This document shows, piece by piece, positions 1,141 through 48,045 of a stretch of DNA of 49,023 nucleotides. The position numbers and the translations under genes are program-made. This DNA is from an uncultured Desulfatiglans sp. GTDB taxonomy: Bacteria; Desulfobacterota; DSM-4660; Desulfatiglandales; Desulfatiglandaceae. Each line of letters opens with the position of its first letter. Positions within the stretch are counted from its first letter, which is position 1. The notes under the pieces are model-generated. The model made no database searches, was not told the origin of the DNA, and was given only the letters and a program-made list of their open reading frames with translations. The DNA lies in assembly GCA_900498135.1 (NCBI GenBank), contig LR026961.1, forward strand, positions 3,256,463-3,305,485, written 5' to 3'.

Positions 1141-1247
1141 GCTTAGAAGGGGTTTTTTCAGGTCCAAAAGGTGGTTTTAAGGGGTAAAACCGGCCCGTCT
1201 TCGAATCTTTTTCGAGTCTGTCCAAATACCTATCTTGGTCCGACCCC
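1141..1247 (-). repeat. GGTCSGACC element, copy 1 (reverse)
   Basis: A 107-bp copy of the dispersed element. Orientation is called + when the plus strand starts GGGGTCGGACCAAG; this copy is reversed and ends CTTGGTCCGACCCC at 1234-1247. It starts GCTTAGAAGG. The right side does not touch a recognised gene end; a short minus-strand frame with IS5-like features (1230-1439) runs into it and stops inside it. Confidence 0.85.
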
Positions 1248-2442: not shown

Positions 2443-3743
2443 ATCCAGTCCATGTCGGCCTCCTTGGCGTTCTATTTCTCGTCATCCTTTTATTTTCACG
2501 TTTTCCGGTTGCCTTCTGCATGGCCCTTGTGGGGCTGCTCGGTTTCGGGTACCTGGTGAGCCCTGCTGCGGCGCTGAACATCACCGTGAAAGATTTTTAT
2601 ACGGTTTACAGCTCATACGACTTGACGGTCGTCCCGCTGTTCGTTTTCATGGGACAAATTCTCTTCTACTCGGGCATCAGCCGCAAACTCTACGATGCCG
2701 CTTTCAAGTGGGTCGGCCACTACAAGGGCGGCCTCGCGATGGCGACGATCGGAGCCTGTGCGGGGTTTTCCGCCATTTGCGGATCCACGAACGCGACGGC
2801 GGCGACCATGGCCTCCGTCGCGCTTCCCGAGATGAAACGGCTGAAATACCGTGATGAATTGGCTACCGGGGTCGTGGCCTCCGGGGGGAGCCTTGGAATT
2901 CTGATCCCGCCCAGCGTAATCTTCATCGTCTACGGGATCCAGACCGAACAATCCATCGGAAAACTTTTCATGGCTGGGATTTTTCCCGGGATCCTGCTTT
3001 CCATCCTCTTCATCCTGACCATCTACATCTGGGTCTCGTTGAGGCCGGAGATCGCCCCGCTGGTCGAAAGGCAAGGGTTGAAAACCAGGATCAAGTCCCT
3101 GGCGGGCCTGGTCGAGGTCATCATCCTGTTTTTGCTGGTCATGAGCGGGCTCTTCCTGGGTATATTCACCCCGACGGAGGCGGGCGCGGTAGGGGCATTC
3201 GGAGGTCTGGTCATTCCTCTCGTGAGGAATCAGCTCTGCTGGGAGGGGTTTCGGGATGCACTCTACTCCTCGACGCGCACGACCTGCATGATCTTCATGA
3301 TTGTTGCAGGGGCGACGGTATTCGGCCACTTTCTGGCGGTGACCACCATCCCGAGCACCTTGTCGGGGTGGGTCGTGGAGCTTCCGCTGCCTCACTGGGC
3401 AATCATGATCGTCGTCATGTTCTTTTTCCTCATAGGGGGGTGTTTCATGGATGCCCTCGGGATGATCCTCCTGACGATCCCCATATTCTTCCCGGTTGCG
3501 GTAGCCCTTGGCTATGATCCGATCTGGTTCGGGGTGGTGATCGTGCTCGTAACGGAGCTCGGCGTCATTACACCGCCTGTAGGCATCAATGTGTATGTCG
3601 TGAGCGGAATCGCAAAGGGGGTGCCATTGGAGGTCATTTTCAAAGGGACTTTCCCGTTTGTTTTGACGCTGATTACCTACATCGTCATCATGATTTTCTT
3701 TCCGCAGATCGCTCTGTTCTTGCCAAGTTTTCTGGCGTATTGA
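2439..3743 (+). CDS. dctM: TRAP transporter large permease (DctM)
   Basis: A 434-residue protein with about a dozen hydrophobic segments, the normal size for DctM. Family blocks are visible: GFSAICGSTNATAATM near the first third, ASGGSLGILIPPSVIFIVYG, FTPTEAGAVGAFGG, and ELGVITPPVGINVYVVSG near the end. It is the transport subunit that works with DctQ and the periplasmic DctP. The start overlaps the stop of dctQ (ATGA), and dctP follows 113 bp downstream. The substrate cannot be read from the permease. Confidence 0.96.
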   Translation: MNPVHVGLLGVLFLVILLFSRFPVAFCMALVGLLGFGYLVSPAAALNITVKDFYTVYSSYDLTVVPLFVFMGQILFYSGISRKLYDAAFKWVGHYKGGLAMATIGACAGFSAICGSTNATAATMASVALPEMKRLKYRDELATGVVASGGSLGILIPPSVIFIVYGIQTEQSIGKLFMAGIFPGILLSILFILTIYIWVSLRPEIAPLVERQGLKTRIKSLAGLVEVIILFLLVMSGLFLGIFTPTEAGAVGAFGGLVIPLVRNQLCWEGFRDALYSSTRTTCMIFMIVAGATVFGHFLAVTTIPSTLSGWVVELPLPHWAIMIVVMFFFLIGGCFMDALGMILLTIPIFFPVAVALGYDPIWFGVVIVLVTELGVITPPVGINVYVVSGIAKGVPLEVIFKGTFPFVLTLITYIVIMIFFPQIALFLPSFLAY

Positions 3744-4888: not shown

Positions 4889-4906
4889 TCTTGTTAGTTC
4901 TTAGTT

Positions 4907-5012
4907 CGGGTCGGACCAAGCTAACTGCTCGGAAATAAACAGCTATCATTGTAAATGGCGGTTTTTTCAGCCTTAGAGTCACCATTTGGGTTCCAGAAAA
5001 AAGCTTCTAAGC
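4907..5012 (+). repeat. GGTCSGACC element, copy 2 (forward)
   Basis: About 106 bp, starting CGGGTCGGACCAAG and containing GCCTTAGAG in the expected place. It lies 18 bp after the dctP stop codon with its GGGTC end facing the gene. Confidence 0.85.
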
Positions 5013-5320
5013 AAACTGCGGCTGAGTGATTTGAACGCTCTGTCTCTGTTTATCTTGGTGCGTTTTCTATCTGATATCAATCAAGTTCCGCTTTGCGAAA
5101 ACCGATTTCAGGTGTTCACTCAGGAGTGCTGCCGAGTGAATCGACCCGCTCGATGTGAGCGCGGCTGGTCTGCGGTTTTCTCTCACAGGGCGCGTCGTGC
5201 CACTGCACGTATAAATAATTAAAATCATTCCATAAAATATGCTGTAGCGAGGGGTCTGGCAGGTTGGTTTCTCCGATCCCGGCTGGAGCTGAAAGATGGC
5301 AGAATCGGAGAAAGAATCAA
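5013..5320. other. Gene-free gap before the ferredoxin
   Basis: AT-rich DNA of about 300 bp. I see no supported gene or clear promoter here. Confidence 0.4.
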
Positions 5321-6186: not shown

Positions 6187-6898
6187 GTGGATAAACTGAT
6201 CATTTACAGCCGCTATCACCGGGGGGGCGTCTCCGGAGTCCAACCCCTATCTTCCAAAAACACCGAGGGAGCAGGTGGAGGCGACGGTCGAGGCCTATGA
6301 GGCAGGGGCATCGATCGTCCACCTTCATCCGAGAAACCCGTATACTGGGAAAGGGGAAAACAGGCCGGAGTGGTATGCGGAGGCCGTTTCGGGTATACGC
6401 GAACGCTGCGATATCATCGTCAATGTCTCTACGGGGGGTATGGGGCGGCGCGTCGACGGTGACTGGCTCTACAAAGAAATACCCGAAGAGTCGGTGAAGG
6501 GAAGGATAGGCGTCATCCCGGTATTGGTGGCAAACCCTGAAACGAAACCAGACATCGCCTCATTCAACGCGGGATCGCCGGTAATCGATATTTACAACAG
6601 GAAGACGGACGAGTTTCTGCTCAAATTCGTCATGGTCCAAAGTTTTCCAGATATGGTTCACATGGCGCAGGTCATGAAGGAGCATGGCGTCAAACCTGAG
6701 CTGGAATGCTACGATATCGGGATGATCAACAACTGCAAGGTTTTGAAAGAATTGGGGTACCTGGAGGAGCCCCTCTACTTCCAGTGTGTCCTGGGTGTCC
6801 TCGGGCAGATCCCGGCCACGGTGGAAAACCTTCAGTATAATGATCATGATGTTCCCGGTTTTGGGGTCGGACCAAGTTATCTAGTTGAAATTAATTGA
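6187..6898 (+). pseudogene. Broken beta-keto acid cleavage enzyme gene (BKACE, DUF849)
   Basis: BKACE enzymes condense a beta-keto acid with acetyl-CoA and cleave it. The likely start is the GTG at 6187, with GGAGG at 6174-6178. The frame reads VDKLII, and an extra T in the run at 6203-6205 shifts it; in the corrected frame it continues TAAITGGASPESNPYLP, as expected for the family. The rest is recognisable: GASIVHLHPRNPYTGKGENR (the HxH zinc ligands), INVSTGG, and ELECYDIGMINN. The 3' end is also lost: after GQIPATVENLQY the frame runs into element copy 3 and stops at 6898, lacking the last ~70 residues with the GRHQ/DN region. With both a frameshift and a truncation it is very unlikely to be active. 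Confidence 0.8.
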
Positions 6899-6969
6899 CT
6901 ATCATCCCAAAATATCTCGTTTTCAAGCCTTAAAACCGGGTTTTCGGGGTCAGATTCGCCATTATAAGG
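6863..6969 (+). repeat. GGTCSGACC element, copy 3 (forward), overlapping the RAYT 3' end
   Basis: Exactly 107 bp, starting GGGGTCGGACCAAG and ending ATTATAAGG. On the minus strand the copy encodes the last 30 codons of the RAYT transposase (from PYNGESDPEN to the stop TAA at 6879-6877), followed by CTTGGTCCGACCCC. On the plus strand it cuts off the BKACE gene. This is the copy that ties the element family to the transposase. Confidence 0.92.
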
Positions 6970-7683
6970 AAACTGGCACTCTCTGAGTTCACAGCTTTCT
7001 CTCCTTTCCACGACTTTCCTGCCGACTCCTCTTTCACCCAATTTTTCTTTTATGTCTTCAATAAAATACAGATTTCCAACAGCGACGCTCTCTGTCCATC
7101 TCTCTTCCCGAACATTTTCCGTCGTCTGAAGCATCCTCTCGACCCATCTTCGGTGTGACAGTGCCAATTGATCGCTGTCTTTAATGCCGAGCAAGCGCAT
7201 TAATACTTCACGGTCGATCAATCTGTATCGCTTTGGATTCTTCTGGATTTCTCTATAGCCTCCGTAGGGCCAGTCACATGGATGCTTGACCACGCCCGCC
7301 CTGACCATGTTCAAATCTATGTAGACAAGACATTGAATCAAATGAATATCTGTTTGTACGGCTGTTGCATGGTAGCGATCTTCCCAAAAAGCGCCATTTC
7401 GGTTCTTTCTTTGATTATACTCTTGAGCTGTACGCCCTGCGATCAACTGAATACTTTTTGGAATCGTATCTCCACCGTTTTGGTCATAGACAAGCAAGTG
7501 AATGTGATTGGATGTTACAGTGTAATTTAGGATGGTCAATCCATAGCGCTTTTTCGCCTCGAAAAGCCAATGGATCCAAACCTGTCGATCCCTAGCAAAT
7601 TTCAGCAGATACTCCCTTTTATGGCATCTGTGTGTGAGATGCCATGCGTGACCTGAAATGTAGTATCGGTTTGCCCTGGGCAT
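6877..7683 (-). CDS. RAYT-like HUH/Y1 transposase (REP-associated, IS200-related)
   Basis: A 268-residue protein of the Y1_Tnp superfamily (COG1943 type), which cuts and joins single-stranded DNA at hairpin-type repeats. The start is set at the ATG at 7683 (MPRANRYYISGHAWHLTHRCH), with GGAG six bases upstream; further ATGs at 7695 and 7713 are possible. The HUH motif is SNHIHLLV (His60, His62), and the likely catalytic Tyr is in AFWEDRYHA (Tyr104). YIDLNMVRAGVV follows, as expected for RAYT proteins. The C-terminal part (ESVAVGNLYF..., ENPVLRLENEIFW) is longer than in the short RAYTs but is known from this subgroup. Its last 30 codons are copy 3 of the dispersed element, and copy 4 lies about 0.95 kb upstream in inverted orientation, as expected for a REPtron. 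Confidence 0.9.
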   Translation of the reverse strand: MPRANRYYISGHAWHLTHRCHKREYLLKFARDRQVWIHWLFEAKKRYGLTILNYTVTSNHIHLLVYDQNGGDTIPKSIQLIAGRTAQEYNQRKNRNGAFWEDRYHATAVQTDIHLIQCLVYIDLNMVRAGVVKHPCDWPYGGYREIQKNPKRYRLIDREVLMRLLGIKDSDQLALSHRRWVERMLQTTENVREERWTESVAVGNLYFIEDIKEKLGERGVGRKVVERRESCELRECQFPYNGESDPENPVLRLENEIFWDDSQLISTR

Positions 7684-8632
7684 TTCTCGCTCCATGATTA
7701 GAATTATATTCATCCATAGTCTTACAGTATCTTCCTATTACTGAAATTCTTCAGCCCACTCTTTTTTTCTCATCGATCTGTTTAAAAGCATTTCGTTCAT
7801 TGATGAGTGCTATCCATATTTTTGTGATTTCTTCTTGATGTGCTCTGATCTTTCTCGATAATTTCTTCTTTTGTCAGACCTCGGTATGCTCACTAGGCGG
7901 CTTAACATGTTTTCCGCCTCGAAATAGTCTTTCTGGCTAGTCTACGCGTCGATCTCGGTGTTTATTTTTACAGTGACCTATCGGTCCCCTGCATCCCGAA
8001 CAGCTGGATTTCCTAGATATTAGTCTGGAACCCTTACCTCCGACTGGAAACTTTCTCTTGCCGGATGCGTTTTTCACAATGGACACTGTTGGGAAGCGGG
8101 CTGAAGAACACACAAGATCCTTCGGCCATTAATGACACGTAGGTCGGCGATTCGGGGGGCTGAAATTCCGGCAGCCAGAAGCATAGTCTAAAGAGAGACG
8201 ACATGGGCAGCCTGGTGTAGCAGGACGGCATTCAAATCGGGGGGCATGTTGCTTGATGTGAGGGTTTGAAAGCTCCTTCTGAATGCTTCAGCGCCGGTCC
8301 GAGATGATATCGCTACGAAGGCGGACGGCTGAGCAGCAAATTCCGACCGCCATCCCGAGGTACAGGCCGGTCGTAAAGAACTTGGCCTCGGCGCCTCAGA
8401 TGATCGGATCCGATCGCCAAATGCCGATGGCGATCTCATCCTTAAGATCAGATATTATTTAAACCAAAGGTGAGAGTGAGTAAACTCATTTGATTCCTTG
8501 CCTCTCAAACCATGAAAAGAACGTGACCCCCATATTCTTGACCGCTGCTGCTCGAGAGCAATGTTTCAGCTTTTCGAGGATGGACGGTCTATCGGGTTTT
8601 TGCGCATATGATGACGTCTCAGTCGCTTCAAG
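7684..8632. other. Debris between RAYT and element copy 4
   Basis: About 0.95 kb without an intact gene. On the minus strand, 7751-7873 is an open stretch reading KIRAHQEEITKIWIALINER, which looks like the C-terminus of a real protein but has no start. The stretch 8190-8440 reads in parts like membrane-protein sequence (TTGLYLGMAVGICC) but is broken by stops. I take this as decayed genes brought together around the transposase. Confidence 0.45.
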
Positions 8633-8738
8633 GCTTAAACCGCGTTTTTGGGGCGAAAATGGTGTGTTTAAGCTGAAAAAATGACCTGTTATAGCGTTTT
8701 ATACCAATGAAAAGAGCGGCTTACCTTGGTCCGACCCC
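8633..8738 (-). repeat. GGTCSGACC element, copy 4 (reverse), inside the hisHF 3' end
   Basis: About 106 bp, starting GCTTAAACCGCG and ending CCTTGGTCCGACCCC. The minus-strand hisHF gene enters it and ends GVGPR-stop on the element's own TAA (8721-8723). Together with copy 3 it forms the inverted pair around the RAYT gene. Confidence 0.9.
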
Positions 8739-11251: not shown

Positions 11252-11483
11252 GAAACATCTCCTATTCCATTTGAATTCGCATTGCGGTTGCATCTGTTTG
11301 ATCGTCGGGTTCTCCTTCAAAAGAATATATTATATAGTATCCATCTGTGGAAATGATTTCCCGGTAGAACCCGGTTTCCAATCCTCATTCGCGGATGGAA
11401 ACCCTATAGTAGCGCTCCGGAAAAGCATCCGGCGCGGCAGCTTATGTCCAGAACTCTCTTCGAATGAAAGGAGCAGGGGAGCG
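11252..11483. promoter_or_regulatory. Divergent promoter region between two DUF169 genes
   Basis: A gap of 232 bp with outward-facing genes on both sides. It holds the AT-rich stretch AATATATTATATAG near 11325-11338, a plausible -10 region. No clear operator palindrome was found. Confidence 0.4.
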
Positions 11484-19462: not shown

Positions 19463-19569
19463 GGGGTCGGACCAAGCTATCTATTTGAAAGCGAATTGTT
19501 TTCCCGCCAAAAAAGGGCTTTTTTCGGCCTTAGAAGAGGGTTTTTGAGGGGCTTTTGGAGGCTTTAAGA
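19463..19569 (+). repeat. GGTCSGACC element, copy 5 (forward)
   Basis: 107 bp, starting GGGGTCGGACCAAG and containing CGGCCTTAGAAG and a terminal TTTAAG. It begins one base after the stop of the ABC ATPase gene. Confidence 0.9.
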
Positions 19570-20710: not shown

Positions 20711-22039
20711 ATGCAAAATGCACGAATCACCCATCTCGGCGGCGAAAAGACGGTCACCGGATCTTGTCATCTGCTCCAGGCCAGCGGAATCGCCATCCTC
20801 ATCGACTGTGGATCGACACAAGGGGCCGATACGGTCGTACCTATGGATCAATGGCCTGTGCATCCGGCGGATATTCCATTTTTATTCCTTACGCACGCAC
20901 ATATCGATCACATCGGGCGGGTGCTTGAGCTGATCCAGCGCGGATTCCGGGGGGAGATTCTTTGCACCCACGCCACCAAGGCGCTGCTGGAGCCGATGCT
21001 CGAAGACGCCTTGACCTTCACCCATTTGTCACGGCGTCAAAAAGAGCATCTGCTCGAGGACCTGGATGACCTTTGCTGGGGGTTCGAGTACCAAGAGACC
21101 TTCGATTTACGCAAAGGCATCCGTTTTACTCTTGGGCGTTCCGGACACATTCTTGGCTCGTGCTGGATCCGTTTCGACCTTCCGGGTGGCGAAGGCATCG
21201 TTTTTTCAGGGGATCTCGGCGCTCGCGGCACGCCCATTCTGCCTGATCCGGATATACCGGCACCCTGTGATCTGCTGGTGCTCGAATCGACTTACGGCGA
21301 CCGCCGCCACGAGGATCGCACCCAACGCCTCCAGCAATTGCAGAATATTCTCCAGCGGGCCTTATCCGATAACGGCAAAGTCCTCATTCCCGCCTTCGCA
21401 TTGGGGCGTACCCAGGAACTGATCTATGACATGGACCGCCTGTTTTCGAATCCAGCGGGCGCTTTTTCTGCGAAAGGCAGTCGTGTGCCGGTATGCATCG
21501 ATACCCCGCTCGGCCTTAAGATCACCCGAATCCATGCCGAGCTTTCGGAGTATTGGAGCGACGAGGCCAAGGGTCTCCTAAAACAGGGCGATCATCCCCT
21601 CAGCTTCGATCGACTATACGGGGTGGATACCTATCAAGAGCATCAGAGGCTGCTGGAGTTCAAGGGGCCGGCCATTGTAATCGCCGGCAGCGGCATGTGT
21701 ACGGGCGGCCGCATCATCGACCATCTCAAGGCTTATCTGCCCGACCCTGCCACTGATATCCTGTTTGTGGGGTATCAGGCCGCCGGAACGCCCGGGAGAG
21801 TCATACTCGAGACCCTCGAAGGGGCCAAGCGCGAGGTTGAGCTGGATGGCGAGGCTGTCCCCGTGCTGGCCGCCGTCCACCAGCTCGGCGGATACTCCGG
21901 CCACGCAGATCAGCAGGAATTGCTCGAATGGGTAAAAGCCGTCCAACCTGGCGCCGTGAAACTGGTGCACGGCGAACCTGGCCCCCAGCGCGCCCTTCGT
22001 GAACTGCTCGATCGGGGTCGGACCAAACTATGTATTTGA
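20711..22039 (+). CDS. Metallo-beta-lactamase/beta-CASP RNase-like protein, 3' end altered
   Basis: A 442-residue protein of the CPSF/YSH1-like exonuclease group (COG1236). The metal motif THAHIDHIG lies near residues 61-69, SGHILGS and FSGDLG follow, then ESTYGDRRH. The beta-CASP part has IPAFALGRTQEL and IAGSGMCTGGRIIDHL, and the C-terminal RMBL block has SGHADQQELLEWV and VKLVHGEPGPQ. It should process RNA in the cytoplasm. The frame then runs straight into element copy 6, which supplies the last residues (GRTKLCI) and the stop; relatives usually continue for a further short stretch, so a small C-terminal loss is likely. All catalytic motifs remain. The start ATG at 20711 has only a weak ribosome site. 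Confidence 0.9.
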   Translation: MQNARITHLGGEKTVTGSCHLLQASGIAILIDCGSTQGADTVVPMDQWPVHPADIPFLFLTHAHIDHIGRVLELIQRGFRGEILCTHATKALLEPMLEDALTFTHLSRRQKEHLLEDLDDLCWGFEYQETFDLRKGIRFTLGRSGHILGSCWIRFDLPGGEGIVFSGDLGARGTPILPDPDIPAPCDLLVLESTYGDRRHEDRTQRLQQLQNILQRALSDNGKVLIPAFALGRTQELIYDMDRLFSNPAGAFSAKGSRVPVCIDTPLGLKITRIHAELSEYWSDEAKGLLKQGDHPLSFDRLYGVDTYQEHQRLLEFKGPAIVIAGSGMCTGGRIIDHLKAYLPDPATDILFVGYQAAGTPGRVILETLEGAKREVELDGEAVPVLAAVHQLGGYSGHADQQELLEWVKAVQPGAVKLVHGEPGPQRALRELLDRGRTKLCI

Positions 22040-22120
22040 AATTACACTGTTATATTGCCAAAAAAAGGTTGTTCTTATGAGTTAGATGTACGTTTTTAGG
22101 GGCCAAAAAGCTGATTTAAC
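22014..22120 (+). repeat. GGTCSGACC element, copy 6 (forward), inside the beta-CASP 3' end
   Basis: 107 bp, starting GGGGTCGGACCAAACTA and followed by TATTTGAAATTACA. The beta-CASP gene ends inside it (stop at 22037-22039). Copy 7 faces it 329 bp further on. Confidence 0.88.
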
Positions 22121-22448
22121 AGCCTGCAGTTTCCATCCCTGACGAATTTCGTCATGCCGTAGATAGACTTCCACGCTGCTTATAATAGGGAGAAAATTGA
22201 TTGAAATGTTATAAATTATTTAAAAAATAAGCATTTATATATATCAGACGAAAAGCTGCTATTGGTTTATGCGCATCTTTGTATATTGACAATAAAACAA
22301 AACACTCCGGAAACAGATATATGGGTTCATGGATATGGACTTTTTCAAGCTCAAGATCATGGTCCTGCACGAGGCGAAGTAGGCTTTAATCGGATGAGCC
22401 AAAATTTTATCCCTCTTAGAGTGGAAATGTGATGTCCTATAGCCCAAC
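22121..22448. other. AT-rich spacer between inverted copies 6 and 7
   Basis: No supported gene. A 17-codon plus-strand frame (22329-22382, ending FFKLKIMVLHEAK-stop) looks like the end of a lost protein; this is uncertain. Confidence 0.4.
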
Positions 22449-22555
22449 GCTTAAAATTGACTTTTTGGAGTGAAAATGGGGCATTTAAGCAAGTAAAAGG
22501 ACCCAAAAATCATTGTTTTTGTATTGTAATTAGCGTGTTAGCCTGGTCCGACCCG
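22449..22555 (-). repeat. GGTCSGACC element, copy 7 (reverse)
   Basis: 107 bp, starting CGCTTAAAATTG and ending CCTGGTCCGACCC. It lies 16 bp before the promoter of the TetR gene, one of the few copies whose GACCC end faces a gene's 5' side. Confidence 0.85.
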
Positions 22556-22570
22556 TTAAGTGTTTTTTGC

Positions 22571-34417: not shown

Positions 34418-34903
34418 ATGGAGAAGTTGCTTCCAGGAAAACGAATTCTCATTGTCGACGATGAGCCGGATGTTTTGGAGGCGTTGGAAGAACTTCTGAC
34501 CATGTGCACCATTGCGAAGGCGGGCTCGTTTGAGGCGGCGAAAGATCTGTTGGAGAGTGAACAGTTCGATATCGTCGTGCTGGATATCATGGGAGTCGAC
34601 GGTTACGAGCTGTTGAAGATCGCTAATCGAAAAAAAATGACCGCGGTGATGCTGACCGCCCACGCGCTCAGTCCCGAACATATCAAGAAATCTTTCAAAG
34701 GGGGTGCCGCCTCCTATCTGCCGAAAGAAAAGATCTCGGAAATCGCCTCCTATCTGGAGGAAGTGCTCCAGGCCAAGAAAGAAGGCAGACATTTCTGGTC
34801 CGGCTGGCTGGAAAAGTGGGGAGATTATTACGACAAGAGATTCGGCCCCGAATGGCGGCGCAATGACAAAGAATTCTGGGAAAAATTCAAATACTGGATA
34901 TAG
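34418..34903 (+). CDS. Stand-alone receiver-domain response regulator
   Basis: A 161-residue protein starting at 34418 after GGAGG. A CheY-type receiver covers residues ~8-120: acidic pair in ILIVDDEPDV, phospho-acceptor Asp in VVLDIMG, Thr in VMLTAHA, Lys in LPKEKISE. The remaining ~40 residues are aromatic and charged (HFWSGWLEKWGDYYDKRFGPEW) and are not a DNA-binding domain. No kinase is encoded nearby. Its position as last gene of the catabolic cluster, 73 bp after the CoA ligase, suggests a regulatory link to it. The final G of its TAG stop is also the first base of element copy 8. Confidence 0.9.
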   Translation: MEKLLPGKRILIVDDEPDVLEALEELLTMCTIAKAGSFEAAKDLLESEQFDIVVLDIMGVDGYELLKIANRKKMTAVMLTAHALSPEHIKKSFKGGAASYLPKEKISEIASYLEEVLQAKKEGRHFWSGWLEKWGDYYDKRFGPEWRRNDKEFWEKFKYWI

Positions 34904-35009
34904 GGGTCGGACCAAACTATATATTTGAAATTACAATGTTATCACCCTAAAAACGCCCATTTTTCTGCCTTAGAAGGTCCTTTTTGGGGGCAAAACGGCT
35001 TCTTTGAGC
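34903..35009 (+). repeat. GGTCSGACC element, copy 8 (forward)
   Basis: 107 bp, starting GGGGTCGGACCAAACTA and containing GCCTTAGAAGG. Its first G completes the TAG stop of the receiver gene. Against the RAYT 3' end, 46 of the 69 bases ending in GGTCC are identical in an ungapped hand alignment (reverse strand). Confidence 0.9.
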
Positions 35010-35231
35010 AGATCAAAGCTCTCGGGTTTTGCCTCCGCCTGCCATAAAAGGTCCCGCCGCTGATGGAGAAGTCTTACAGGCTATTTTGCCTGCACGAGAC
35101 GGTTGTTCATGTGAAAGTCGTCCCATGGCTTGATTTGCGCCTTCATTTCGTAACGTACGGTCTTGCCTCCCAGAACGAAGGATTTTGAATTTTTCGCTTG
35201 ACCAGGGAGTTCTCATTAAAGACTACCCGGT
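35010..35231. other. Spacer between inverted copies 8 and 9
   Basis: 222 bp without an intact gene. On the minus strand a short frame (35095-35196) reads VLGGKTVRYEMKAQIKPWDD and ends NRLVQAK-stop, possibly the tail of a lost gene. Confidence 0.35.
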
Positions 35232-35338
35232 GCTTAAAATGCTTTTTTTGTGATCCAAATGCTGCTTTTAAGGGTGTAAAATGGTCAAATTTATGTCGTT
35301 TTTCTTTTACATTCAGATGGTTACCTTGGTCCGACCCG
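35232..35338 (-). repeat. GGTCSGACC element, copy 9 (reverse), inside the pfkB-type 3' end
   Basis: 107 bp, starting GCTTAAAATG and ending CCTTGGTCCGACCC. The minus-strand kinase gene enters it and ends RVGPR-stop on the element's TAA (35321-35323), exactly as hisHF does in copy 4. Confidence 0.9.
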
Positions 35339-36202
35339 CTTCATCACTTCTTGAAGAGTGCCGGTGAAGGGGCCGGGGCGTTCCATTTTGATGGATGCCA
35401 GGGCTGCAGCGTACTTGAGGGATTCGGGGACGTCATGTTCCAGTCGGCGGGAAAGGTAGGCTCCGAAGACAGTGTCTCCGCGTCCGGTGCGGCCGGACGA
35501 ATTGCGGTTGGAAAACCTTTCGAAATAGTTTCTGCCCTGGTGGCGCACCAGGACACCGTCGGACCGGGTAATCATGGTTTCGCCGCATCCCCAATCCTCG
35601 AAACGGCCGGCAGCCTCTTCCGGGTCGGCCGTCCCAGTCAGGAGTTCCGCTTCAACCATATCCGCCTTGACCCATTCGGCGAGTTTCAGGATGTCCGTCT
35701 TTCGGGGTACATCCCTGAATGAAATCCTCCTTGTCACCGGATCGACCTGTCGAACGAAACTCTGCATGTCGACGGAAACGCGGCAGCCGCGCTCGCGAGC
35801 GTACTGCATCAGTTCGAAGCGGAAGTCCTGGTCCGTCAACCCGGCGAAATGCATTTGTTCCGCTTTGATGTCGGGCATTTCATCGACCGTGATGAAGCCG
35901 GCCGTCCGGGGTTCGAGCATCTCCCTTTCATCGACGTTTTGCGTGGGGTGGTCCACCCGCATCGCCGTCGTCACTGGTGCAGGGATCCGGTAGATGACGA
36001 TCCCAGCCGCTTTCACGGGATCGAGAAGATGTTGGTCGGTCTCGTGCATTTTCGTGATCAGGGCGATGCGTTTTCCGGCGGGCGCCGCCGCCATGGCGCT
36101 GAAAAAGGCCGAGCCCCCGGTGGCAAAGGTCGTTTGACCTTCGAACGGCACGATTTCATCGTATGAAACGTGTCCGACGAATGCGATATCGTACGCATCC
36201 AT
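35321..36202 (-). CDS. PfkB-family carbohydrate kinase
   Basis: A 293-residue kinase of the ribokinase fold. The start ATG at 36202 has AGGA seven bases upstream; the frame is open to 36262 without a site. The N-terminal DIAFVGHVSYDEIVPFEGQTTFATGGSAFFSAMAAAP is the sugar-binding side. The C-terminal signature reads SGRTGRGDTVFGAYLS, where the anion-hole GAGD has become GRGD; the catalytic Asp is kept. SVDMQSFVR and VKADMVEAELLTG are as expected. Substrate unknown (sugar or nucleoside). The last residues KRVGPR and the stop come from element copy 9, so the C-terminus has been modified. It is divergent from the DUF2284 gene. Confidence 0.88.
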   Translation of the reverse strand: MDAYDIAFVGHVSYDEIVPFEGQTTFATGGSAFFSAMAAAPAGKRIALITKMHETDQHLLDPVKAAGIVIYRIPAPVTTAMRVDHPTQNVDEREMLEPRTAGFITVDEMPDIKAEQMHFAGLTDQDFRFELMQYARERGCRVSVDMQSFVRQVDPVTRRISFRDVPRKTDILKLAEWVKADMVEAELLTGTADPEEAAGRFEDWGCGETMITRSDGVLVRHQGRNYFERFSNRNSSGRTGRGDTVFGAYLSRRLEHDVPESLKYAAALASIKMERPGPFTGTLQEVMKRVGPR

Positions 36203-36423: not shown

Positions 36424-36972
36424 ATGGTGCAGGATGATCTTGTTTCTTATTGCAGCAGAGCCATAAACGCAGGAGCCAGCCATGCAAAGGTGATTCATCC
36501 TAGCAGCGTTGTGACGGCGCCATGGGTGAGGATCAAATGCCAGTTCGGATGCCCCGGCTATGGAATGCGCTATTCATGTCCTCCTGATTCTCCGACCCAC
36601 GACCAGATGCGGGAGGTGCTGGATCAATACACGCGGGTGATCTTGTTTCATAGAGTGAGTGCGCACGAAGCCGGACAAAGCAGGATTAAGGCCACGCGGA
36701 GGTTTCTGGACGAACTGGTGACGCTCGAAGGCGAGATGTTCAAGGACGGGTATTACAAGGCGCTCGTTTTGCTCGAAGGGCCCTGCCACCTGTGCGAGAC
36801 ATGTGAGAAGTTGAAAGGCGCTCCCTGCCGCTTCCGCGATCGTGCAAGACCGGCTATGGAGGCGTGCGGGATCGACGTCTACCAAACCGCACGCAACAAC
36901 GGCTTTCCCATCCAGCCCTTAAGGGACAAGACCGAAACGCAGAATCTTTACTGCCTGATGCTGGTCGACTAG
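36424..36972 (+). CDS. DUF2284 Cys-rich metal-binding protein
   Basis: A 182-residue protein; the start at 36424 follows AGGAGG. Cys motifs define the family: CQFGCPGYGMRYSCPPDSPTHDQM (about residues 39-62), GPCHLCETCEKLKGAPCRFRDRARPAMEACGID (about 119-151). These Cys probably hold an iron-sulfur cluster or another metal. No signal peptide is present, so it is cytoplasmic. The family is common in methanogens and anaerobic bacteria and its function is unknown. Element copy 10 begins ten bases after the stop. Confidence 0.9.
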   Translation: MVQDDLVSYCSRAINAGASHAKVIHPSSVVTAPWVRIKCQFGCPGYGMRYSCPPDSPTHDQMREVLDQYTRVILFHRVSAHEAGQSRIKATRRFLDELVTLEGEMFKDGYYKALVLLEGPCHLCETCEKLKGAPCRFRDRARPAMEACGIDVYQTARNNGFPIQPLRDKTETQNLYCLMLVD

Positions 36973-36982
36973 CACGGTAACA

Positions 36983-37085
36983 GGGGTCGGACCAAGGTAA
37001 CCTATGGATAATAAAAGAATATGTGCCGAAAAAGGGTCCAATTTGAGGCTTAGAGTGGCCATTTTAAGGCCTTTTTGAATCCCGA
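36983..37085 (+). repeat. GGTCSGACC element, copy 10 (forward)
   Basis: About 103 bp, starting GGGGTCGGACCAAGGTAA and containing GGCTTAGAGTGGCCATTTTAAGG. The far end is less clear than in other copies and reaches the ribosome site of the next gene. It lies ten bases after the DUF2284 stop. Confidence 0.85.
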
Positions 37086-37926: not shown

Positions 37927-39021
37927 ATGCACACGCAAACGTTCGATACAATCATTATCGGTGGGGGGTTGAGCGGCGTTTACGCCGCGACTCTGCTTGC
38001 GGAAATGCGGGCATCTTTCTTGGTCCTGGAAGCCCGAGATCGGCTCGGCGGTCGAATCCTGAGCCCTGAGCATCATGGGTTTTTCTCTGATCTGGGTCCT
38101 TCGTGGTATTGGCCGGCGATCCATCCGAAAATGGCTCATCTCATCCAAGCGTTGGGCCTTGATGGCTACCCGCAGTTTGACAGTGGGTATGGGCGCTTCG
38201 AGCGCTCCAATGGTTCGGTTCAAACTGTCAGAGGATACGTCATGGAGCCGCCCTCGTTTCGATTGACAGGCGGGATGATGGCCCTGGTGCGGAGGCTCTG
38301 TGAACGGATTCCTGAAGGTGCCATCCACCTCAATAATCCGGTTTGTCGAATTGAGAGAACAGAAGAGGGCGCCCTGGTGAGCGTCGGCGAACTCGATCGG
38401 AATCCGTGGGCGCAGTTCAGGGCCCGCCAGGTTATCCTCGCTCTCCCACCGCGTCTTGCAGCTGCCACCATGCTTTTCGAACCGGAACTTCCTGATGATC
38501 TCGTCCAGGCGATGTTGAGGGTCGGTACGTGGATGGCCGGGCAGGCGAAATTCTGTGCACTCTATGATGCACCTTTCTGGCGCACAGCCGGTCTTTCCGG
38601 GGAAGGATTCAGCGAGCGTGGGCCTTTGGGGGAGATTCACGACGGATCGAACGATGCCGGCGGCCCCTACGGTCTGATCGGGTTTGTCGGCATCCCGGCT
38701 GTGCAGCGCAGCAGGCCGGACCTGCTGCTGGAGGAGATTCTTTGCCAACTCGCATCCCTCTATGGGAAAGAAGCTCTGAACCCGACCGCCTTTTTCTACC
38801 GGGACTGGGCCCGCGAGCGATTTACTGCCACGCCGTACGATCAGCCTCCGATGGTCGAGCATCCTCTTTATCATCCCCCGGCCGGTCGGACCTCTATTTG
38901 GAACGGCACCGTTCATTTTGCCGGCACCGAAACCGCCGACGAACACGGGGGATACCTCGAAGGGGCCCTGGCATCCGCCGAACGTGCCGTATGGAGGGGT
39001 CGGACCAAGTCAAGCCATTGA
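37927..39021 (+). CDS. FAD-dependent amine oxidase-like protein, 3' end altered
   Basis: A 364-residue flavoprotein. The N-terminal dinucleotide-binding site is TIIIGGGLSGVYAATLLAE with LVLEARDRLGGRI (residues ~8-45), typical of the monoamine oxidase/phytoene desaturase group. Near the C-terminus, HFAGTETADEHGGYLEGALASAERAV is the second FAD block. The frame then enters element copy 11 and ends WRGRTKSSH-stop, so the last few native residues are replaced. The FAD site is complete and the enzyme may still work. It is shorter than most amine oxidases (~450). The ribosome site before the ATG at 37927 is weak. Substrate unknown. Confidence 0.88.
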   Translation: MHTQTFDTIIIGGGLSGVYAATLLAEMRASFLVLEARDRLGGRILSPEHHGFFSDLGPSWYWPAIHPKMAHLIQALGLDGYPQFDSGYGRFERSNGSVQTVRGYVMEPPSFRLTGGMMALVRRLCERIPEGAIHLNNPVCRIERTEEGALVSVGELDRNPWAQFRARQVILALPPRLAAATMLFEPELPDDLVQAMLRVGTWMAGQAKFCALYDAPFWRTAGLSGEGFSERGPLGEIHDGSNDAGGPYGLIGFVGIPAVQRSRPDLLLEEILCQLASLYGKEALNPTAFFYRDWARERFTATPYDQPPMVEHPLYHPPAGRTSIWNGTVHFAGTETADEHGGYLEGALASAERAVWRGRTKSSH

Positions 39022-39102
39022 TATCAAATTATATTTATTCATACGAGTGCCATTTTTTGACCTTAGGCGGACCATTTCGCGCAAAAAAAGCCAGGTTTAA
39101 GG
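38996..39102 (+). repeat. GGTCSGACC element, copy 11 (forward), inside the FAD gene 3' end
   Basis: 107 bp, starting GGGGTCGGACCAAGTCAAG and ending GGTTTAAGG. The FAD gene stops inside it at 39019-39021. Confidence 0.88.
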
Positions 39103-39164
39103 TTGTTGACTGACCGAGACAAGTCCAGCAGTGCCACCTCTACTCGTAAAGAGTCTAATCGCCT

Positions 39165-39422
39165 TTGCGTGGCGAACTGAACGTACAGCCCGATTATGCT
39201 CATTTCGTGGCAATGATTCCTTCAAAAGTGGGGATAAGCCAGTTGCTTGGACGATTGAAGGGGCAGACATCGATACGGCTGTTTCACCAGTTTCGGCATT
39301 TGAAAAAGAAACCATATTGGGGGAACCACTTCTGGTCCAAAGGATACTGCGTGGATACGGTGGGGCTTGATGCGGACATGGTGCGTAAGTATCTCCGGTT
39401 CCAAGAGGAAAAGGAAAGATAA
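39165..39422 (+). pseudogene. IS200-type TnpA fragment
   Basis: About 85 codons of the C-terminal part of an IS200/IS605 TnpA (Y1 transposase). Clear family text: IPSKVGISQLLGRLKGQTSIRLF, YWGNHFWSKGYCVDTVGLDADMVRKYLRFQEEKER. The HUH motif has lost its first His (PDYAHFV where PDHVHLV is usual), and the N-terminal ~60 residues are gone; stops lie directly upstream. It is inactive. It sits between inverted copies 11 and 12, which explains why that pair is further apart than the other pairs. Confidence 0.8.
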
Positions 39423-39480
39423 TTGGAACAAATGCAATTATTTTGATGGGTATCATGATAGCGACACAACTTTTTTGCCC

Positions 39481-39548
39481 GCCCCCTCAGGGGGTAAGGC
39501 ATATACCCCATATGGGGGGGCTCGATTAAAGCTGCACCCTGAGGGTGC
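39481..39548. repeat. Three consecutive palindromes, probable IS200-type right end
   Basis: CCCCCTCAGGGGG at 39482-39494, CCCCATATGGGG at 39506-39517, and GCACCCTGAGGGTGC at 39534-39548. They follow the TnpA fragment by about 60 bp, where IS200/IS605 elements carry the hairpins their transposase recognises. Some could also act as terminators. Confidence 0.6.
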
Positions 39549-39727
39549 GGATCTGTGCATGATGGTGTTCTTATCCGGGATAATTGAGTTTTCTGGCTGG
39601 CTGAGCCCGCGTATCCATATTCTTCAAGAAATGGATCACGCGGGCGAAGGCGGTGAAACATGCTCTTCGTGCACTGTAGTGCACTGCACTGATTCGGTCG
39701 GGGGCGCTTATTCAGCCTATGCGAAAA

Positions 39728-39834
39728 CCTTAAATGCCCCCTTTTCGGGTTGAAATGGTGGTTCTAAGGCTGGAAAAGAGCATTATTTGCTATTATTATG
39801 TTGTAATTTTAGCATGTTATCTTGGTCCGACCCC
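39728..39834 (-). repeat. GGTCSGACC element, copy 12 (reverse)
   Basis: Exactly 107 bp, starting CCTTAAATGCCCCC and ending CTTGGTCCGACCCC. It lies five bases after the porin stop (minus strand). Aligned by hand to the RAYT 3' end without gaps, 46 of the 69 bases ending in GGTCC are identical, and the outer CCTTA boundary falls at the same position. Confidence 0.92.
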
Positions 39835-39839
39835 CTCAG

Positions 39840-46485: not shown

Positions 46486-46572
46486 AACATCCTCGATATT
46501 AGCAATGTATAACTTAATTTCATTTGACTAATAACCGATGTCCTCCCGTCTTGTCAAGCATTAACACATTAA

Positions 46573-46679
46573 GGGGTCGGACCAAGATAATATATTAATA
46601 TTACAAGCAATTATGCCATATAAAAGCCTATTTCGGAGCTTAAAAGGCCCATTTTGAGGGAGAAAAGGGGTTCCTAATC
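46573..46679 (+). repeat. GGTCSGACC element, copy 13 (forward)
   Basis: About 107 bp, starting GGGGTCGGACCAAG and containing GGAGCTTAAAAGG. It lies 88 bp from the 5' side of the DtxR-type gene. To the right it faces the 3' end of the lipoprotein gene at 46768. Confidence 0.88.
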
Positions 46680-46767
46680 AAAGGCTACTTACTCTCCCTG
46701 CCGCAGTCATGGAGAATATTTCCGTTTAATATCAATTTGTTGAACTAATTTAAGCTGCCGAAATACT

Positions 46768-47459: not shown

Positions 47460-47566
47460 GGGGTCGGACCGAGATAAATATTGGAAAATATTATAAAAGA
47501 AAAAGAAAAAGAAGGTCTTTTTTGGTTTAGAATGCTTATTTTGACTTCATAAAAGGCCGGTTAAAT
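47460..47566 (+). repeat. GGTCSGACC element, copy 14 (forward)
   Basis: 107 bp, starting GGGGTCGGACCGAG (one change in the conserved end) and rich in A. It lies 30 bp from the start codon of the lipoprotein gene, so here the GGGGTC end faces a gene's 5' side. It may overlap that gene's promoter. Confidence 0.82.
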
Positions 47567-47854
47567 TTTACTGCGTGCCCAAGGAACTGATTTCAGTTGC
47601 GAGATAGCTGATGTGTGGGCTAGCTTGATGTCTCTCAAGTGATTTTTCAGGGATTTATTTGGGGTCCTAGAGACGACTTTCGTTCCAAACCCTCTTGCAC
47701 GGGAAAAATCCCAATCCAACATGGGAGATTACTCCGCCGGGATTGGAATCTTCAGGGCATTTTAATAATTTTGATTAACATGTTGGAGTTACATAAAATT
47801 ATCGAGTGCATCTCCAATGGAATCGGGCTGGACGGATCGTCTACGACCCCCAAA
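47567..47854. other. Spacer between inverted copies 14 and 15
   Basis: 288 bp with no supported gene. Confidence 0.4.
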
Positions 47855-47961
47855 GTTTAAACAGTTCTTTTTGGGGCTGAAAAGTCGCTTCTAAGGTCAA
47901 AATATGGCTCTAAAACATGCTATTTTCATGTAAAATCAATGTGGTAGCTTGGTCCGACCCC
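47855..47961 (-). repeat. GGTCSGACC element, copy 15 (reverse)
   Basis: 107 bp, starting GTTTAAACAG and ending GCTTGGTCCGACCCC. It lies 85 bp from the 3' end of the transposase gene. Confidence 0.88.
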
Positions 47962-48045
47962 TTTATTTCTATCTTAACCCAAGTTTGCCATTTTTTTTGC
48001 CAAGGACTGATATTTCAGTATGTTAGCCGATTTTATGGTCACTAC

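Follow-up and report, generated by a model that had tools for sequence, protein, structure and literature searches.

A RAYT-type transposase gene whose last codons lie inside a terminal inverted repeat

The transposase gene and the repeat at its end

The window, by which we mean the whole stretch of 49,023 nucleotides analysed here from the genome of an uncultured Desulfatiglans sp. (contig LR026961.1), contains a gene for a RAYT/TIRYT-type HUH (Y1) transposase at 6877-7683 on the minus strand. The gene encodes 268 amino acids from the start MPRAN (PF01797, E 2.9e-10), and an alternative in-frame ATG lies ahead of this start at 7713. Against NF047646 the protein reaches 77.4 bits, slightly below the cut-off of 80. 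A sequence-profile search of solved structures gave no match to the transposase, whereas a fold search with its AlphaFold model did, the best match being the RAYT of E. coli (4er8, E 1.6e-6). The catalytic HUH and tyrosine residues that transposition of this type requires are present, and H60, H62 and Y121 are invariant among 53 homologues. The tyrosine motif reads YIDLNM, and M126 is conserved to at least 90% in the same homologues.

In the AlphaFold model the last strand of the folded domain comprises residues 230-235, and the mean pLDDT falls from 76 for residues 231-240 to 52, 48 and 43 for residues 241-250, 251-260 and 261-268. The codons of the C-terminal tail (residues 237-268, at 6880-6975 on the minus strand) are thus predicted to specify an unstructured segment. 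They are almost coextensive with a terminal inverted repeat (TIR), and because the pLDDT drops after the last strand, this 3' TIR probably encodes a flexible tail.

The 3' TIR lies at 6863-6969 and reads tag-first on the plus strand; it was identified by alignment and by a TIR profile from other species (E 8e-21). As the initial annotation had noticed, it overlaps the 3' end of the gene: read on the minus strand, 6877-6969 holds the last 30 codons and the stop, and 14 bases extend beyond. These 14 bases are the terminal tag GGGGTCGGACCAAG (6863-6876), which is untranslated and directly adjoins the stop codon TAA (6877-6879). The general layout of the TIR is a tag GGGGTCGG[AG]CC, followed by a spacer and by an imperfect palindrome of about 40 nt which lies about 65 nt from the tag. 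In the window this palindrome lies within the reading frame at 6929-6968, with outer arms at 6929-6934/6963-6968 and inner arms at 6941-6946/6951-6956, coordinates which were transferred by alignment, the register and the covariation being taken from 53 loci.

The exact sequence GGGTCGGACC occurs 15 times in the window, and all fifteen copies align as a single unit of about 107 nt. A profile built from the repeats of other species alone recovers 15 of 15, including the gene end, with E-values from 8e-7 to 8e-21. An ungapped comparison of the gene end finds 48 of 69 bases (61 of 88) identical in the copy at 19463 and 49 of 69 (60 of 88) in that at 34903; the initial annotation had counted 46 of 69, in a register that differs slightly. 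When the 14-base tag is removed, both copies still match at 47 of 74 positions, compared with 17.9 +/- 3.8 of 74 (maximum 38) for other placements of the tagless gene end in the window. In the genome, a single contig of 4.8 Mb, GGGTCGGACCNAG is found 30 times and the reversed pattern once, and 14 of the 30 tags sit inside 60 kb around the RAYT gene. A local concentration of repeats near the gene has been described for some REP/rayt systems by Nunvar 2010 (PMC2817692).

Homologues and the mobile unit

A scan of GTDB genomes confirmed at least 431 relatives, of which 80 loci were listed and 78 analysed. Among the matches listed, 73 of the 78 analysed loci have an open frame up to a stop close to where it is expected, and in 61 of these 73 full-length homologues the stop lies 6-31 nt before a tag GG[TC]C[CT]GACCCC, in one and the same frame in 58. 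The proposal that the tail of the transposase and the repeat at the element end are one sequence, which would be at odds with homologues lacking the repeat at their 3' ends, therefore describes a stable property of the subfamily, 61 of the 73 carrying the repeat among the matches listed. By record title, the tag-bearing homologues listed belong to Thermodesulfobacteriota, Pseudomonadota, Myxococcota, Planctomycetota, Nitrospirota and Bacteroidota, although many of the loci come from MAGs and single phylum placements may reflect contamination. We conclude that this overlap characterises a widespread family of bacterial single-strand transposases, in which an element-end repeat of ~107 bases contains the last ~30 codons.

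An inverted tag is present upstream in 53 of the 61 tag-bearing homologues among the matches listed, 107-168 nt before the ATG except for one locus (293). From tag to tag the element measures 928-951 bp in 45 of these 53 loci and thus resembles an insertion sequence of about 935 bp. The spacing of the 5' tag, together with the position of the stop, implies that the gene begins right after the 5' TIR and ends within the 3' TIR.

Pelotalea chapellei DSM 13688 carries two copies on different contigs which are 99.06% identical over 953 nt. The matching stretch comprises the whole tag-to-tag unit and about 11 nt on either side, and the DNA beyond is unrelated. These recent insertions (L124 and L130) have a short flank similarity (left GTGGCT, right AAAA.GTCTGG), perhaps a sign of target preference. 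A target duplication of 3 nt or more was found at none of the 53 loci (0/53), as is expected for a Y1 enzyme. Read tag-first, the base just outside the tag, before GGGG, is mostly T and then C, and no other target preference is visible at the 53 loci.

The RAYT copy of the window is itself not an intact element. The nearest inverted TIR on its 5' side lies at 8634-8738 (minus strand, E 1e-14), 1.02 kb from the ATG. We considered whether 6863 and 8738 mark an intact pair of TIRs belonging to the gene; this is ruled out by the 107-168 nt (one 293) spacing of the homologues and by the synteny with a congeneric genome (G001), which breaks at 7833/7845, between the RAYT gene and this TIR. The 5' partner has been displaced beyond the synteny break.

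Instability at the outer edge of the tags

Short tandem duplications occur directly outside the tags, in the window for instance at 4893-4906, 22000-22013, 36960-36982, 38975-38995 and 46545-46572. Among the homologues listed, 22 of the 59 flanks on the 3' side and 17 of the 53 on the 5' side contain a direct repeat of at least 9 nt, whereas the corresponding controls yield 4 in 278 stretches and 4 in 217. The duplicated unit contains bases of the tag in 30 of 39 ends, so the duplications arose with or after insertion. Between our genome and G001 the indel rate is 15.3 per kb over the 45 bp that adjoin the tags on the outside, compared with 4.3 per kb for the remaining intergenic DNA (p 8e-5) and 2.9 per kb for the TIRs (p 6e-5; 16 events), and substitutions outside tags are not raised in this comparison. 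Two near-identical MAG loci (L131 and L132) differ by 2 substitutions in 3.5 kb and show 16 nt of indels no farther than ~20 nt from one tag (3320-3345), although assembly errors in MAGs may add to single cases of this kind. At 6857-6863 in the window, G001 is ~4.9 kb longer between the homologues of 6857 and 6852, with a breakpoint 6-11 bp outside the tag of the RAYT 3' TIR.

The simplest cause of the duplications would be recurrent nicking at the tag edge followed by imprecise repair. Replication slippage beside the palindrome would be a serious competitor, only somewhat short of an even chance: slippage typically leaves tandem duplications with short matches, and part of the instability data comes from MAG assemblies. 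Against slippage, the indels are concentrated beyond the tag rather than inside the TIR (15.3 vs 2.9 per kb), and most duplicated units (30 of 39) include tag bases.

Protein and DNA constraint on the same bases

The ninth base of the tag is A at both ends in 38 loci, G at both ends in 14 and discordant in 1, so that the ends agree in 52 of 53 loci compared with an expected fraction of 0.60. More generally, 13 of 108 columns agree between 5' and 3' ends beyond permutation (p<0.01), a permutation which ignores kinship; for this reason a tree was built on the gene body without the tail. On this tree the tag base switched at least 4 times, and in 4 of 4 independent pairs it changed at both ends together, four pairs being too few for significance in a sign test. 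The tag type also follows the resident RAYT in the dispersed repeats: it is A in 45 of 45 copies in our genome and G001, and G in 8 of 9 copies in two other genomes (G009 and G011), matching their RAYTs. The expectation of the initial annotation that the repeat consensus should follow its RAYT gene is thus borne out.

The palindrome is symmetric about one register, in which 64% of the cells are paired in 5' ends, compared with 31-50% in nine neighbouring registers. Over the 53 loci, compensating changes are seen at columns 68-105 in both ends and at columns 71-102 in the 5' end; G-T pairs occur at 71-102. Three codons are conserved in the 3' end but not, or far less, in the 5' end: Tyr at columns 102-104, Asn at 57-59 and Trp at 45-47. 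The pair 71-102 shows the two demands at one position, as it is paired in 83% of 5' ends but in 38% of 3' ends; we attribute the low value to column 102 being the wobble base of the invariant Tyr codon. Conservation by codon position is nearly flat (0.20/0.20/0.16 bits), and because this difference is tiny the coding constraint is argued from specific codons and not from a general three-base period. An open frame across repeats was dropped as a coding test, being confounded by variable stop positions. The 3' repeat is therefore under a dual constraint, since it holds both DNA positions that vary jointly with those of the 5' repeat and the codons of the tail.

The C-terminal tail of E. coli TnpA-REP has residues that touch the GTAG tag (PMC8266576). 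Because both ends change jointly, we keep in view the idea that the tail reads the very DNA that encodes it, giving a self-updating specificity, although we regard this as unlikely; no tail residue was found to track the tag, and the tag itself is untranslated. If it were true, each change in the TIR would alter the tail that reads it, and new element lineages could arise without two separate mutations.

The palindrome might instead act as a double-stranded binding site, for autoregulation or for a host protein, with no role as a transposition hairpin, the repeats having spread in some other way. Folding of single palindromes as single-stranded DNA gave weak and mixed results, so that we claim no stable hairpin; the spacing between conserved A/T blocks is about one helical turn, and the 5' TIR sits where promoter and leader would be. 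These points would all suit such a site. We nevertheless find it improbable, as the nearest solved relative (4er8) was crystallised with a REP hairpin, one repeat unit marks both the ends of the mobile unit and the gene-less pairs described below, and the G-T pairs at 71-102 would be better tolerated by a strand fold than by a duplex site.

Dispersed copies in the window and the genome

Single TIR copies lie at 4907-5013 (plus strand, with a tandem GAACTAA duplication outside the tag), at 19463-19569 (plus strand), the copy used for comparison in the initial annotation, and at 36983-37071 (plus strand); these and the copies named next were all recovered by the profile built from other species. 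Inverted pairs without a RAYT gene are found at 22014-22557 (22014-22119 plus, 22555-22449 minus) and 34903-35340 (34903-35009 plus, 35338-35232 minus), both of which are present in G001, and at 47460-47963 (47460-47564 plus, 47961-47855 minus). A further inverted pair at 38996-39836 (38996-39102 plus, 39834-39728 minus) is interrupted by a stretch with an IS200-type fragment that is absent from G001. The tags of the pairs 22014/22555, 34903/35338, 38996/39834 and 47460/47961 all face outward, and the interiors of the gene-less pairs are unrelated to one another. At 46573-46742 a TIR copy (46573-46678, plus strand, E 2e-16) faces a degenerate partner without the exact tag (46742-46638, minus strand, E 8e-5).

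The copy at 1141-1247 (minus strand) corresponds to a place in G001 where a pair of tags lies ~390 nt apart. The homology to this pair ends at 1124, where the sequence 1-1123 begins, which is multi-copy and 98% identical to several contig ends of G001; it is probably an insertion sequence that cut the TIR pair at 1124. The 400-bp stretch at 39161-39563, inside the fourth pair named above, holds the second Y1 match of the window (39174-39398), which we take to be a fragment of a classical IS200 TnpA. It was rejected as a second gene of the RAYT's kind because of this resemblance and because G001 is without the stretch. A different dispersed repeat lies at 11328-11384, ~50 bp of which match dozens of places in G001 at 82-97%.

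Outside the window, a compact TIR dimer of ~245 bp occurs at 434349-434590 of the genome, and at 4423805-4424776 (G000:C1, loci L026-L029) both ends of a TIR pair are tandemly duplicated (~183 and 174 bp) which are single in G001. The window copies that could be compared with G001 are common to both genomes at ~90-93% identity and hence old; empty sites were sought in G001 and none was found, every comparable copy being shared.

The initial annotation had proposed that the gene's own 3' end was mobilised or imprinted to give the dispersed repeats. To separate the two kinds of end, a log-odds classifier of 3' versus 5' ends was used, which in leave-one-out trials was right for 50 of 53 and 53 of 53 known ends. 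By this measure 28 of the 30 repeats of our genome score like the non-coding upstream repeat, without the signature of the tail, although copies derived from a 3' TIR pass as 5'-like in half of the cases at 38% substitution. At tail-specific columns the dispersed copies match 44%, compared with 87% for 3' ends and 32% for 5' ends, and at the columns conserved in both ends they match 90%. Since the positions conserved as DNA are kept and the tail codons are missing, the dispersed repeats are element ends of the non-coding kind and not copies of the gene tail. What could be said for the earlier proposal is that the gene end aligns without gaps with the copies at 19463 and 34903 (64% beyond the tag), that one copy (L006) scores slightly tail-like (+4.4), and that in four REP systems the rayt 3' end is built into BIMEs (PMC2817692). 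Set against the classifier result and the contrast between tail-specific and shared columns, an origin of the repeats from the gene end is very improbable.

Interpretation

We consider it likely, on the comparative sequence data, that the RAYT serves as transposase to a TIRYT-type element with TIRs of 107 nt that extend into the gene, so that the 3' TIR doubles as the unstructured tail of the protein. The observations behind this reading are the overlap, the dual constraint, the joint change of both ends, two 99%-identical units of ~930 bp, the lack of target duplication and the indels at the tag edge. That the overlap is instead an accident at one locus, by chance insertion of a repeat or by extension of the gene into one, is scarcely credible: the density of tag-bearing repeats near the gene (14 within 60 kb) and the rearranged 5' side of the window copy would fit, but the equal overlap and equal frame in 58 of 61 tag-bearing homologues of several phyla (73 full-length genes, among the matches listed) and the codon constraint inside the TIR do not.

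In the TIRYT-type element proposed here, the HUH/Y1 enzyme would recognise tag and palindrome in the tag-first strand and nick at the outer edge of the tag, and the DNA between two inverted TIRs would be mobilised without target duplication. The gene-less inverted pairs may then be non-autonomous relatives, similar to REPINs or MITEs and bounded by TIRs of the non-coding kind, which the RAYT enzyme or a lost relative could have mobilised. As the interiors of these pairs are unrelated and the pairs are old, their mobilisation by the RAYT enzyme is something we infer.

The relation between RAYTs and their repeats, and the alternative of mobile element versus domesticated gene, are a standing question in the field. 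In the subfamily described here the unit is defined from tag to tag (~935 bp), and protein and element end have to co-evolve since they share bases; conservation of the C-terminus in such proteins can stem from a function of the DNA. P. chapellei DSM 13688, the Tyr, Asn and Trp codons of the tail, tag base 9 and the pair 68-105 provide a concrete strain and concrete positions for testing.

Comparison with known systems

The closest known systems are the TIR-flanked RAYTs which Di Nocera, De Gregorio and Rocco named TIRYTs in 2013, their units being TIRtrons (PMC3733652). Common features are a RAYT-like Y1 transposase (here by PF01797 and 4er8), long inverted TIRs unrelated to GTAG REPs (here in 53 of 61 homologues among the matches listed), a G-rich terminal motif, and moderately abundant genomic TIR families with dimers, some TIRs overlapping the 3' end of the gene. 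In that work the motif GGGGWSAS is common to some TIRs only, TIR families and dimers are found in genomes, and certain TIRs are marked as overlapping the gene's 3' end (PMC3733652). The present subfamily differs in having 107-nt TIRs, a palindrome within the reading frame and ~90 shared coding nucleotides; in other RAYTs of related genomes the TIR matches are ~20-50 nt long and overlap the gene by 0-37 nt. Its tag GGGGTCGG is one base off GGGGWSAS, a motif which is not strictly defining. Most TIRYTs fall into subclass 2.1, where REPs were not found (Quentin 2018, PMC6006769); the motif given for TnpA-Y1 of class 2 and subclass 2.1 is Y---NP (PMC6006769, table), from which the YIDLNM found here departs. 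TIRYTs mostly correspond to RAYT group 1 of Bertels 2017.

With the REP/RAYT systems (REPtrons, REPINs and E. coli TnpA-REP, 4er8) the present one shares the fold, the catalytic residues, a C-terminal tail, dispersed repeats, inverted pairs and local build-up near the gene. In contrast to the short GTAG-tagged palindrome that flanks the gene of a REPtron, however, the repeat has no GTAG/CGTC tag and no short GC-rich hairpin beside the tag; it carries GGGGTCGG[AG]CC with the palindrome ~65 nt off, is ~107 nt long and encodes the end of the protein. Elements of the IS200/IS605 type (IS608, ISDra2) likewise have an HUH/Y1 enzyme, a compact single-gene structure and no target duplication, but they are without terminal inverted repeats, whereas the present element has a 107-nt inverted repeat at both ends. 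The gene-less pairs resemble MITEs in that their inverted TIRs are related to the TIRs of an autonomous element and enclose DNA with no gene; the copies described here, however, share no interiors, have no target duplication and possess much longer TIRs.

The suggestion of the initial annotation that the overlap with the gene end defines a distinct class holds in part only, as TIR-flanked RAYTs, some of them overlapping the 3' end, were already described in 2013 (PMC3733652). In the text of open-licence papers, figures excluded, we found no description of a subfamily with a long overlap under joint protein and DNA constraint. What is new is thus the long overlap and the dual constraint, while TIR-flanked RAYTs with a 3' overlap as such were already known.
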